Of a stretch of 46,543 nt of DNA, positions 5,516 to 40,124 are shown piece by piece. Source of the DNA: an uncultured Flavobacteriales bacterium. Lineage in GTDB: Bacteria; Bacteroidota; Bacteroidia; Flavobacteriales; Crocinitomicaceae. The DNA lies in assembly GCA_946479985.1 (NCBI GenBank), contig CAMLIF010000018.1, positions 1 through 46,543 of the forward strand, written 5' to 3'. Under the pieces are notes generated by a model, which did no database searches, was not told the origin of the DNA, and saw only the letters and a list, made by a program, of their open reading frames with translations. The position numbers were made by a program, and so were the translations under genes. How positions within the stretch are numbered: the stretch's first letter is position 1; each line of letters starts with the position of its first letter.

Positions 5516-5534
5516 TCCTGTGTAGCGGGGACAG

Positions 5535-5554
5535 GTCCCGATAGCTATCGGGAC
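5535..5554. repeat. Perfect 20-bp palindrome
   Basis: GTCCCGATAGCTATCGGGAC equals its own reverse complement. It replaces part of the T-loop/T-stem in the degenerate tRNA-fMet copy. I suspect a dispersed element, but only one copy is in this window. Confidence 0.85.
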
Positions 5555-5563
5555 GAACGTGCG

Positions 5564-5579
5564 TCCGTCAGCTGACGGA
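5564..5579. repeat. Perfect 16-bp palindrome
   Basis: TCCGTCAGCTGACGGA equals its own reverse complement. It replaces the 3' anticodon stem and variable region in the degenerate tRNA-fMet copy, nine bases from the 20-bp palindrome. Confidence 0.85.
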
Positions 5580-5594
5580 TATGAGCCCGACGAG

Positions 5595-5840
5595 CTATTG
5601 TAAAATCTTATTTCTTATAAAATCCCTTCCTCTTGATGATTTCAATTCTTTTTCACGCTTCATAGTCTCTTGCTTTGAGTCAAAGAATTCAATATGGATA
5701 ACTTCCCAAGGACGGAATTTAATCGTGTAGCCTCAGGTTGCGAACTCATTATGGGAATGGAATCTGTCAATTAAATCGGAGGTATATCCGATATAGATTT
5801 TGTCGTAAACTCTGGAATATCAAACGTAGGTAACGAACAT
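5595..5840 (-). pseudogene. GIY-YIG nuclease family gene inactivated by two stop codons
   Basis: Minus-strand translation from the ATG at 5840 reads MFVTYV, stop, YSRVYDKIYIGYTSDLIDRF, HSHNEFAT, stop, GYTIKFRPWEVIHIEFFDSK and so on to RGRDFIRNKILQ, stop. This is the complete layout of a small (about 81-residue) GIY-YIG domain protein: the YIGYT core, the conserved R.H..G-like segment, EFFDSKQETMKREKELK and the C-terminal lysine/arginine tail. Two TGA codons, at 5820-5822 and 5733-5735, break it. The frame stays intact between and after the stops, so decay is recent. The gene lies between tRNA-fMet and a scrambled copy of that tRNA, the arrangement expected of a tRNA-associated homing-type element. 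Confidence 0.85.
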
Positions 5841-5896: not shown

Positions 5897-5897
5897 G

Positions 5898-5970
<73 letters not shown>

Positions 5971-6161: not shown

Positions 6162-6617
6162 ATGAGCGAAGAATCAATCAAAAAGATCAGGCATCTGAGT
6201 CAGCAATATGCATACGACTCAATCAAGATGCACGAATCAATTTCACAGCGGGCCGGACTTTCAGGAACAGATCATAAATACCTGGGATTCTTGTTGGTAA
6301 ACGGAAAAATGACAGCGGGTGAACTTGCAGCACTTTCGGGTCTTACCACCGGTGCCGTAACTGGCTTGATAGACCGCTTCGAAAAGAAGAAACTAGTAAA
6401 AAGGCAACTCGACAAAGATGACAGACGAAAAGTGATGATTGAACCGAATGTCAAAAATATCATGACGCTACTTGAACCGTTCTTCACAGAATTCGGACAA
6501 AAAACAGAAGAACTGATCGGTTCCTTCTCAAGCGAAGAAATGAATACCATTGAAACTTTTCTTTCCAAATCAATTGAAATTATGAAATCAAACACCGTTT
6601 CCAAACCAATAAAATAG
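6162..6617 (+). CDS. MarR family transcriptional regulator
   Basis: 151 residues, standard MarR length. The winged helix-turn-helix covers about residues 45-100: MTAGELAALSGLTTGAVTGL is the DNA-recognition unit, and KRQLDKDDRRKVMIEP is the wing with its DDRR motif. Flanking N- and C-terminal helices would form the dimer interface. The gene ends three bases before the start of an MFS exporter gene, so the pair resembles a classical MarR-efflux operon in which a ligand lifts self-repression. The ligand is unknown. Confidence 0.92.
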   Translation: MSEESIKKIRHLSQQYAYDSIKMHESISQRAGLSGTDHKYLGFLLVNGKMTAGELAALSGLTTGAVTGLIDRFEKKKLVKRQLDKDDRRKVMIEPNVKNIMTLLEPFFTEFGQKTEELIGSFSSEEMNTIETFLSKSIEIMKSNTVSKPIK

Positions 6618-37489: not shown

Positions 37490-38941
37490 ATGAAAAGAAC
37501 TAAAATTGTTGATGTCCTGGGTTCACCTAAAGTTGGTGAAACGTATGTTGTTAAAGGTTGGGTAAGAGCGTTTCGTAATGACCGCTTTATCCAGTTAAAT
37601 GACGGCTCAACAATTAATAATATCCAGGCAGTTATTGAAGCTGATAATTTCGATGCGGAAACATTGAAGAAAATCACAACAGCTGCTTCTGTGGGTTTAA
37701 CCGGAACTTTGATCGAATCACAAGGAAGCGGTCAGGCAGTTGAATTGCAGGTTTCAGAAATTGAAATTATCGGTGAAGCACATCCTGACGATGTTCAGAA
37801 AACGGTCATGCAGCCTAAGAAACACAGTTTGGAATTCTTGCGTGAACAAGCGCACTTACGTTTCAGAACAAACCTGTTCGGAGCCGTTTTCAGAGTGCGT
37901 CACGCCGTAAGTTTTGCCATTCACAATTTCTTTAATAAACAAGGATTCTATTACATTCATACGCCGATCATTACAGGTTCGGACGCTGAAGGAGCCGGGG
38001 AAATGTTCCGGGTTTCGAATCTTGATCCTAAAAACCCGCCATTAAACGAAGACGGAAGTGTAAACTATTCGGAAGACTTCTTTGGTAAACAAGTAAACTT
38101 AACAGTTTCAGGTCAGTTGGAAGGCGAATTAGCGGCTACGGCACTTGGACAGATTTATACTTTCGGACCAACATTCCGTGCAGAGAATTCCAACACTTCC
38201 CGTCACTTAGCCGAATTCTGGATGGTTGAACCGGAAGTTGCGTTTAATGACATTCACGACAACATGGATTTAGCTGAAAGCATGCTGAAATACATTTGTA
38301 GTTACGTGATGGAGAATTGTGCCGACGATTTGAAATTCCTGAACGAAAGAGAAGCCCAGGAACAACAATCGAAACCGCAAAACGAACGTGCCGAGCTAGG
38401 ATTGTTAGAGCGTTTGCAGTTTGTAATGGAAAATGATTTCAAACGAATCACTTACACAGAAGCAATTGACGTGTTGATGAATTCGAACCATTACAAGAAA
38501 AAGAAATTCAAATACGAGGTTACATGGGGAACCGATCTTCAGTCGGAACACGAACGATATTTAGTGGAGAAAGAATTCAAACGCCCTGTAATTATTACTG
38601 ATTATCCGGCTTCTTTCAAAGCATTCTATATGCGCGCAAACGATGGCTGCGAACCAGGAAAAGAAACCGTTGCTGCCATGGACATTTTATTTCCCGGAAT
38701 TGGTGAAATGGTTGGCGGATCGCAGCGTGAAGAACGTTTGGATGTTTTGAAAAAGAAATGTGCTGCTTTCGGAATCCACGAAGAAGATTTGTGGTGGTAT
38801 TTAGATACACGCCGTTTCGGATCAGTTCCGCATGCCGGATTCGGTTTAGGATTCGAACGTATGGTGATGTTCGTTACCGGAATGTCGAATATCCGCGATG
38901 TAATTCCGTTCCCAAGAACACCGCAGAACGCAGAGTTTTAA
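37490..38941 (+). CDS. asnS: Asparaginyl-tRNA synthetase
   Basis: 483 residues, class IIb synthetase. N-terminal OB-fold anticodon-binding domain (about 1-110: [20 protein letters not shown]). The catalytic core has motif 2 [20 protein letters not shown] and motif 3 [14 protein letters not shown]. The SQREERLD segment and [10 protein letters not shown]-terminus are typical of AsnRS and distinguish it from AspRS, which has a GAD insertion. It charges tRNA-Asn with asparagine in the cytoplasm. Single-gene unit with its own promoter and palindromic terminator. Confidence 0.97.
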
Positions 38942-38969
38942 AAAAGAAAATCAGGATAAAAATAAAACC

Positions 38970-39004
38970 AGTCGGGGCGAATAATTATTCGCCCCGACTT
39001 TTTT
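38970..39004. terminator. Palindromic terminator of asnS (second copy of a dispersed palindrome)
   Basis: AGTCGGGGCGAATAA (38970-38984) is exactly complementary to 38985-38999 (30-bp perfect palindrome) and runs into a T6 tract. Its 13-base outer arm is identical to that of the rodA terminator at 31432-31473; only the centres differ. Confidence 0.85.
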
Positions 39005-39010
39005 CACAAG

Positions 39011-39262
39011 CCAATCACCGGTTTTCACCATCCAATCGTCACTTTCCGGGTTCCAATCACGACTTTGCGGAAGCCAACCATCACTTTGCGCGAGTCGATG
39101 ATCACTTTTCGCAAGCCGATGACCACTTTTTGAAATCCGATCATTACTTTTCATGAGCCGATCATCACTTTTCACAGACCGATCACCACTTTTCAAGAAC
39201 CTATGACCACTTTTCGCAATCCACTCATGACTTTTCATGTGCCGATCGTCCTTTTGGAGCAG
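39011..39262. repeat. Tandem array of twelve 21-bp units
   Basis: Twelve consecutive units of exactly 21 bases start at 39011, 39032, 39053, 39074, 39095, 39116, 39137, 39158, 39179, 39200, 39221 and 39242, with no indel. The consensus is CCGATCATCACTTTTC plus five variable bases; the core (A/G)(T/C)CACTTTTC is best conserved. A partial unit (ACTTTTTTCACAAG) precedes the array. The array fills the gap between the asnS terminator palindrome and the stop codon of the FkbM-like gene, which is transcribed toward it. On the minus strand it is open and would encode heptads of the type KS(D/G)DRL. There are no unique spacers, so it is not a CRISPR. Confidence 0.95.
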
Positions 39263-39266
39263 CCAA

Positions 39267-40124
39267 TTATCCTTCCAAATATTCCCAATCCTTAATTTCC
39301 TGAAACGATTTGAATCCGTCTTTTGCCAGCGGATGCCACAATGTTGATTCCGGAGTAACTGTAGGAACCTCATCTACCAGCAAATCCTTACGGATATAAA
39401 CCTGGTTGATTCCAAGATCCGAAGCACCGATCAATCGATAGCCTTTTTTCTCAGCCAGTTTATTCATAGCAATAACACTTGCTCCGTGATAAACCGGATG
39501 TTTTCCGGGAAACATATAATCGGGATCGTAAGGAACTACAATATTCTCTGTTCCGAATTCAGTATGCGTTTCAATAACCACAACTTTCGGCTGAACAACG
39601 GTAAGTGCATCCCAAACCCAATAATCGTTGCCGTCAATGTCGATGGAAAGCAATTCAATTTCGCCTGATAAACCGGCTTTTGTTATGAGTTCGTTGATGT
39701 TTTCGCGCTTGATAATAGCCTGAATGTAGGTTGGTTTCGGATGATAAGGTGTCGGTATCCTGGAATAGAATTTCCGTCCGCGCTTGATCAGTTTCTCATC
39801 GCCTTCAAAAAACAATCCCGACCAGCCAAAATGAACTGCCAGGTTACTGCAATTGCTGTTTATTCCATCGTTAGCTCCAATCTCAATGAACGTCTTGCTG
39901 CTTTCTCCCAAAAGCGAGAACAGAAATAACAACAATCCATCTTCCTCAAACTGGGAAAACACTTTAAAGCCGGTTGAATTGAACGCCGGAACCTGCTTGT
40001 TCTTTTGTGCTGTTTGGTATTGCAGCATGAGTGCTCGCTGCTGAATCCCAACCGAAGGATGCAATTTGTCCTTATGAATTCGCTTACTGAAATAATATTT
40101 GATCAAATTTTTGAGCCACGCCAT
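39267..40124 (-). CDS. FkbM-like SAM-dependent methyltransferase
   Basis: 285 residues. The segment STGFKVFSQFEEDGLLLFLF followed by SKTFIEIGANDGINSNCSN is the SAM-binding start typical of FkbM-type methyltransferases. ELLSIDIDGNDYWVWDAL and PKVVVIETHTEF form the later core strands. Such enzymes O-methylate sugars or other small molecules, and a role in surface glycan decoration is plausible given the nearby polysaccharide genes. Soluble, no signal peptide. Its mRNA would run into the 21-bp repeat array before meeting the palindrome at 38970. Confidence 0.82.
   Translation of the reverse strand: MAWLKNLIKYYFSKRIHKDKLHPSVGIQQRALMLQYQTAQKNKQVPAFNSTGFKVFSQFEEDGLLLFLFSLLGESSKTFIEIGANDGINSNCSNLAVHFGWSGLFFEGDEKLIKRGRKFYSRIPTPYHPKPTYIQAIIKRENINELITKAGLSGEIELLSIDIDGNDYWVWDALTVVQPKVVVIETHTEFGTENIVVPYDPDYMFPGKHPVYHGASVIAMNKLAEKKGYRLIGASDLGINQVYIRKDLLVDEVPTVTPESTLWHPLAKDGFKSFQEIKDWEYLEG

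Follow-up and report, generated by a model that had tools for sequence, protein, structure and literature searches.

An intergenic array of twelve 21-bp units in a Flavobacteriales genome: a possible class of tandem repeats defined by period rather than sequence

Introduction

The usual explanations for tandem repeats are slippage and selection on a sequence motif. Variable number tandem repeats (VNTRs) and minisatellites are head-to-tail imperfect repeats that lie between genes. Here we describe an array of twelve 21-bp units in a stretch of 46,543 nucleotides, referred to throughout as the window, from an uncultured Flavobacteriales bacterium of the Crocinitomicaceae (contig CAMLIF010000018.1 of assembly GCA_946479985.1). 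The array is located between asnS, encoding asparagine--tRNA ligase, and a gene for an FkbM-like methyltransferase. In contrast to VNTRs and minisatellites, 21-bp arrays of this kind keep their period across unrelated sequences, with very few changes in spacing, and we know of no preferred length of 21 for slippage.

Two described systems are close to the array in some respects. BrickBuilt, a minisatellite and miniature inverted-repeat transposable element of Porphyromonas gingivalis, is described as consisting of 23-nt units, with one sequence present 19 times in a genome and with leader and tail inverted repeats (PMC4596501). Like our array it belongs to the Bacteroidota and is made of short tandem units without spacers in an intergenic position, which is invariably the case for BrickBuilt (PMC4596501). 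In contrast to BrickBuilt, the window holds a single array, of period 21, and the acidobacterial arrays described below mostly have a sequence of their own. The edges seen in our array, in which inverted-repeat ends were not searched for, are the palindromic terminator to the left and a stop codon to the right. Heptamer direct repeats of the TAACTGA type are described from Beggiatoaceae, Cyanobacteria and some Bacteroidetes, and most of those in one genome immediately precede gene starts (PMC4679880). These are also intergenic, of fixed unit length and patchily distributed across phyla (PMC4679880), and 21 is three times seven, but their 7-bp unit is one fixed sequence, whereas the 21-bp arrays vary in sequence and have little 7-bp sub-period on average. 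A survey of repeats across the tree of life was limited to units of 1-9 bp and would therefore miss a 21-bp class (PMC12699852). Judged by title, none of the literature matches listed concerned intergenic arrays of 21-bp period in bacteria.

Results

The array in the window combines a strict period with no coding signal and an intergenic position between convergent genes. Its twelve units (39011-39262) are in phase and no interval other than 21 is present, in agreement with the strict spacing claimed in an earlier reading of the sequence alone (the original prediction). The units match their own consensus with a mean of about 0.76, and each of the 12 scores 16.0-26.6 bits against a profile built from these same units. 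Self-identity of the array at lags of 21, 42 and 63 is 0.67, 0.64 and 0.65, while most other lags are near 0.23, with small bumps of 0.29-0.35 at multiples of 7 and at a few other lags. Tandem Repeats Finder detected the array within 39056-39246, with periods of 21, 42 and 63, and at the threshold of the census described below it is the sole array of period 5-80 in the window. Conservation of columns is uneven, the second C and TTT being invariant in 12/12 units. About 30 distinct base changes have accumulated with 0 indels; as substitutions usually outnumber indels, this is mildly surprising at most for the window array taken alone. A search of Rfam with the array gave three matches at E 0.42-0.82, all far under the gathering scores. 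The sole further strong match to the unit profile in the window (22.1 bits, 6422-6442, minus strand) is a single sequence inside an open reading frame (ORF, 6162-6617) putatively labelled a MarR-like regulator from reading of the sequence, and was judged to be due to chance.

The original prediction had also noted an open frame on the minus strand across the array. This frame exists and spans 140 residues, but its interpretation as coding did not hold. Between units, 14 of 61 differences were synonymous in the minus frame, against 20.3 expected when the same substitutions were placed at random (p of at least this many, 0.978). Across all six frames of four arrays, only 1 of 24 tests gave p<0.05 (window, plus frame 2, p=0.048), in a frame that meets a stop codon within the array, at 39154-39156. 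A word-based search of the heptad peptide against 5.8 billion proteins, which requires shared 5-residue words, returned 2 candidates and 0 at E<=10. The minus-strand ORF had no match in Pfam and a codon score near zero, and was not called by a codon-usage gene caller. On the side of the methyltransferase, the gene and its orthologues share an end point, with 19 of 19 aligned orthologues (58-96% identity, selected from the best 120 of 4368 matches) ending within one residue of the same place. Coding on either strand was rejected on the synonymous deficit, the lack of a protein relative by word search or in Pfam, the codon score and the gene calls, and, with the shared end of the FkbM orthologues, it is very unlikely that the array is a gene.

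The exact pattern of two adjacent window units was scanned across 84,980 genomes and was present at 2 loci, of which one (L001) was a true 21-bp array and the other (L002) an isolated pair. The host of L001 is an acidobacterial metagenome-assembled genome (G001), which holds three arrays of this family (L050-L052) with a ACTTTTCCGAAG-like core. A similar pattern with one mismatch allowed had 0 matches in 198 other genomes from the phylum of G001. A looser pattern matched in 22 of 60 relatives, mostly at single chance-like places, and among the loci fetched with it, 21-bp arrays that were not multiples of a 7-bp repeat were found in only two genomes, G001 and G220. The window shares an ACTTTTC core with one acidobacterial family, a core that was selected by the search pattern itself, and either chance or T-tract seeds could account for this likeness. 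We estimate that a chance match to the pattern is expected if 21-bp arrays are numerous, because within an array the pattern holds only about 11 independent letters. Homology of the window array with the ACTTTTCCG family of G001 is not claimed here.

In these two acidobacterial genomes, 21-bp arrays form a class whose members are for the most part unrelated in sequence. A census of tandem arrays that ignored unit sequence, and required an identity of at least 0.60 at a fixed lag across 105 bases, sampled 579 kb of G001 and 600 kb of G220 (1.18 Mb together). Among arrays with a period of at least 10, multiples of 21 accounted for 14 of 22 in G001 and for 12 of 19 in G220 (26/41 in total), and mononucleotide shuffles gave no arrays in the first pass of the census. 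A search for arrays of 21-base periodicity, which the original prediction had suggested for related genomes, was thus positive in these two acidobacterial genomes. Seven-bp arrays are also common in G001 and G220; such direct repeats in these acidobacterial genomes include L083, L084, L112 and L183 (CTTTTCG, CACTTTT, TTTCGGA), and at L112 and L183 the 7-bp array adjoins a 21-bp array. Derivation of the 21-mer from 7-mers was considered and rejected, there being no clear general excess at lag 7 and a slight one in the window and a few other arrays.

About 1.7 Mb of other DNA was examined for multiple-of-21 arrays, and none reached the census threshold. Within this DNA, 0 were found in 250 kb of Bacteroidota plasmids, and 0 in 57 viral contigs together with three more Bacteroidota plasmid stretches (766 kb). 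At a lower threshold, outside the census, three further genomes showed a period of 21 or 42, namely G200, which is described below, G218 (L174, a low-complexity purine stretch of period 21 or 42) and G087 (L177, a 42-bp array), the latter two being below the census threshold; G217 (L187) gave a low-identity signal of 0.49, located on the opposite side of the gene under study. Searches of mobile DNA with the locus itself gave 0 plasmid matches to the array by blastn, and 5 phage records when 38000-39600 was used, aligning to the asnS part only. In viral contigs the pattern matched at 6 loci, with no 21-bp array at any match and repeats of other period elsewhere in two; asnS was not found in viral contigs, and alignment of FkbM gave 57 loci of at most 50% identity. 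The gene flanking L050 had matches in 1 of 6 relatives (best 36%).

Properties of the class were assessed on 30 arrays comprising 305 units, 1 array being from the window, 17 from G001 and 12 from G220. This set consists of 24 of the 26 multiple-of-21 census rows, the 20-bp array L248, L050-L052 of G001, L080 of G220 and the window array; L117:19784 (G001, a 42-bp array without 21-bp units) and L105 (G220, a weak 63-bp row) were left out. The interval was exactly 21 in 252 of 275 cases, with the remainder made up of eleven intervals of 20, six of 42, three of 22 and one each of 32, 63 and 84, in arrays carrying 1129 differences from consensus. In a subset of 21 arrays, distinct base changes sum to at least 339, while 3 intervals depart from multiples of 21. 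An irregular array with core AAAAGCCGCAGAGCGG and intervals of 23-37 was seen by the same method in another acidobacterial genome (L194:428-839, G204), and the method therefore does reveal irregularity.

In contrast to the period, the unit sequences of these arrays are mostly unrelated. When unit consensuses were compared at their best rotation, 6 of 435 array pairs reached at least 15/21, against a 99th percentile of 13/21 and a maximum of 15 among 3000 shuffled pairs. The six are the mutual pairs of three relatives in G001 (17, 17 and 21), the window with two of these (15 each), and L080 with L096 in G220 (17). Unit G+C ranged from 0.24 to 0.67 and fold stability against unit-permuted controls from Z -6.7 to +2.9, and there is therefore no structure or composition common to the arrays; shared helical-phase features or a shared fold were rejected, no common property being seen. 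The proposal in the original prediction that the constraint is on length, at two turns of B-DNA, and not on sequence is supported.

By our own codon-usage gene calls, 0 of the 30 arrays lie half or more within a called gene (highest cover 0.39; window array 0.00), in sampled DNA of which 81-87% is called coding. Of 29 arrays, 10 lie in convergent gaps and 3 in divergent ones, whereas the 558 background gaps, drawn from G001 and G220 only, include 96 convergent and 120 divergent; ORFs covering more than half of an array were omitted from this neighbour test. For 22 of 30 arrays the closest gene end is 3', so that of the suggestion that such arrays always sit 3' of a gene, a bias stands and the rule does not.

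Turnover could be compared at one locus. In G001 a histidine kinase gene is followed by an array that belongs to the GGAAAAGTG family (T-rich when read on the opposite strand), and in G200, where the kinase is 83% identical, the orthologous place has a weak, short 21-bp array of different sequence (lag identity 0.63). Outside longer arrays, G001 has 5 two-copy 21-bp duplications, with lengths of 17-20 and 22-24 giving 0 or 1 each, a pattern that lends weak support to a duplicating ruler.

In the window, the array occupies the gap between the convergent genes beyond the terminator (Table 1), with four bases between the FkbM stop codon and unit twelve. For asnS the terminator has a T-tract on the plus strand, and for FkbM a tail on the minus strand that is T-rich but weaker, in agreement with the predicted position of the array in the inferred FkbM 3' untranslated region, ahead of a palindromic terminator. 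Comparison of ACTTTTTTCACAAG with the consensus ACTTTTCACGAG at the left edge shows a register that runs weakly into the terminator T-tract; the L050 array in G001 likewise begins at a terminator T-tract. On the right, the unit at 39263 matches at 9/21 overall; its first 12 bases match at 8/12, a score equalled or bettered at 139 of 46,000 positions in the window.

Table 1. Features at the array locus, with positions in the window
Feature	Position	Strand	Evidence or remark
asnS, asparagine--tRNA ligase, convergent left neighbour	37490..38941	+	PF00152, 7.7e-68; best plasmid-borne matches annotated asnS
ORF over array, 140 aa, KSDDRL-type heptads; judged not a gene	38951..39373	-	ORF listing
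Palindromic intrinsic terminator, 13-pair stem	38970..38999	.	matches terminator pattern on both strands
In-phase edge unit over terminator right arm and T-tract (ACTTTTTTCACAAG)	38990..39010	.	12/21 matches to consensus
Array of twelve 21-bp units, 0 indels	39011..39262	.	plus-strand consensus CCGATCATCACTTTTCACGAG
Weak in-phase continuation over FkbM stop codon	39263..39274	.	8/12 matches
FkbM-like methyltransferase gene, convergent right neighbour	39267..40124	-	PF05050, 2.1e-5

The best FkbM relative bearing an organism name, among the matches listed, is from Fluviicola sp. (81% identity), and one window protein carries a type B sorting domain of the type IX secretion system (T9SS), which places the organism in the Bacteroidota and makes it probably Fluviicola-like. 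Two other stretches of the window, 5520-5610 and 5897-5970, were noted: a tRNA-Met was called at 5897-5970 (minus), and about 300 bases to its left is a broken, interrupted partial look-alike of it that ARAGORN did not call, followed, by reading of the sequence, by a putative GIY-YIG-type gene remnant. A tandem repeat of period 219 bp at 2-587 (2.7 copies, 74% matches) overlaps ORF 86-1525 at the left end of the window and may therefore belong to a large surface protein with a repeated domain.

Discussion

The presence, in distant bacteria, of arrays that differ widely in sequence and agree in their 21-base spacing suggests that two turns of DNA are measured and that the sequence is not read. 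We consider the chances evenly balanced that the window array is a non-coding intergenic tandem array defined by its 21-bp step rather than by its sequence, and that it grew in place. Such growth would have taken the form of successive tandem duplications within the asnS/FkbM gap, each step being two helical turns long, perhaps from the asnS terminator tail (ACTTTTTTCACAAGCC) onwards until the FkbM stop was reached. Either duplication would occur in 21-bp steps irrespective of sequence, or selection would keep a 21-bp step irrespective of sequence. Because the left register meets the T-tract, and because L050 starts at a T-tract too, the window unit may have been copied from the terminator tail, and two such T-tract seeds would explain the likeness of the window array to the G001 family. 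We infer a length-measuring duplication step and a terminator seed, and that the enzyme or structure responsible may be general. The wider proposal, that some bacteria in at least two phyla build exact 21-bp arrays from any intergenic sequence, preferentially near gene 3' ends, through a length ruler that is blind to sequence, with the window array as a terminator-tail-seeded example from the Bacteroidota, is a tentative one, possible but well short of even.

A number of observations weigh against these proposals. Membership of the window array in the acidobacterial class would rest on likeness in period, in location and in freedom from indels, and 400 kb of other Bacteroidota DNA (plasmids and other orders) held 0 multiple-of-21 arrays. 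Both G001 and G220 were reached with patterns taken from the window, and hence provide no estimate of frequency among genomes. The class is patchy: at the census threshold, 377 kb from 5 related acidobacterial genomes gave 0 multiple-of-21 arrays, as did 328 kb from 18 other genomes (in pieces of 5-20 kb). Selection of arrays by identity at a fixed lag favours regular ones. All 11 intervals of 20 come from a single array in G001 with a 20-bp period (L248:7749-8067), and the step is therefore not always 21. Some units are common to more than one array (three in G001 and two in G220), so that a few sequences do spread. Behind five further histidine kinase orthologues (59-80%) there is no 21-bp array. 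G220 has 0 two-copy 21-bp duplications, and a mutational ruler there is therefore weakened. Finally, 4 of 60 array edges have a terminator reading into them, against 21 of 400 random stretches; seeding by terminators was thereby rejected as general, and was kept as a putative origin for the window array and L050.

It is rather unlikely, in our judgement, that the window array is an ordinary neutral minisatellite, in which a chance 21-bp duplication expanded by slippage, bears no relation to the acidobacterial arrays, and is free of indels through luck or recency. Such an origin is consistent with the presence of one array in the window, with the drift of its units, with an indel record that is mildly surprising at most, and with the absence of multiple-of-21 arrays from the other Bacteroidota DNA examined (400 kb), but the period of 21 is exactly the one that dominates G001 and G220, and the acidobacterial array with intervals of 23 to 37 shows that irregular arrays exist and are detected.

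A sequence-specific array, in which a putative protein would bind the ATCACTTTTC core on the same face of the helix every two turns, is improbable. It is favoured by the uneven columns of the window array, with its invariant C and TTT, and by the ACTTTTCCGAAG-like core common to three arrays in G001. This shared core, however, was picked by the search pattern itself, the units of most arrays of the same period are unrelated, which makes sequence-specific binding unlikely, and at one orthologous site (G200) there is a weak array of different sequence. These last two findings similarly weaken the suggestion in the original prediction of a binding array or repeat RNA acting through a CACTTTTC core. 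We regard as very improbable an RNA element in the FkbM 3' untranslated region or in asnS read-through that would act via repeated structure. Least credible of all is a minus-strand protein of KSDDRL heptads, for which the 140-residue open frame is present but the synonymous differences are below chance, word search and Pfam give no homologue, the codon score is near zero and no gene is called.

To return to an array grown in place and defined by its step, no locus-specific function would be expected of it, although it might act as a spacer, or as a buffer that separates convergent transcription units. If true, these arrays would represent a genome-wide class with a fixed length and no fixed sequence, which would point either to duplication by an activity that gauges two helical turns or to selection for a DNA geometry that does so.
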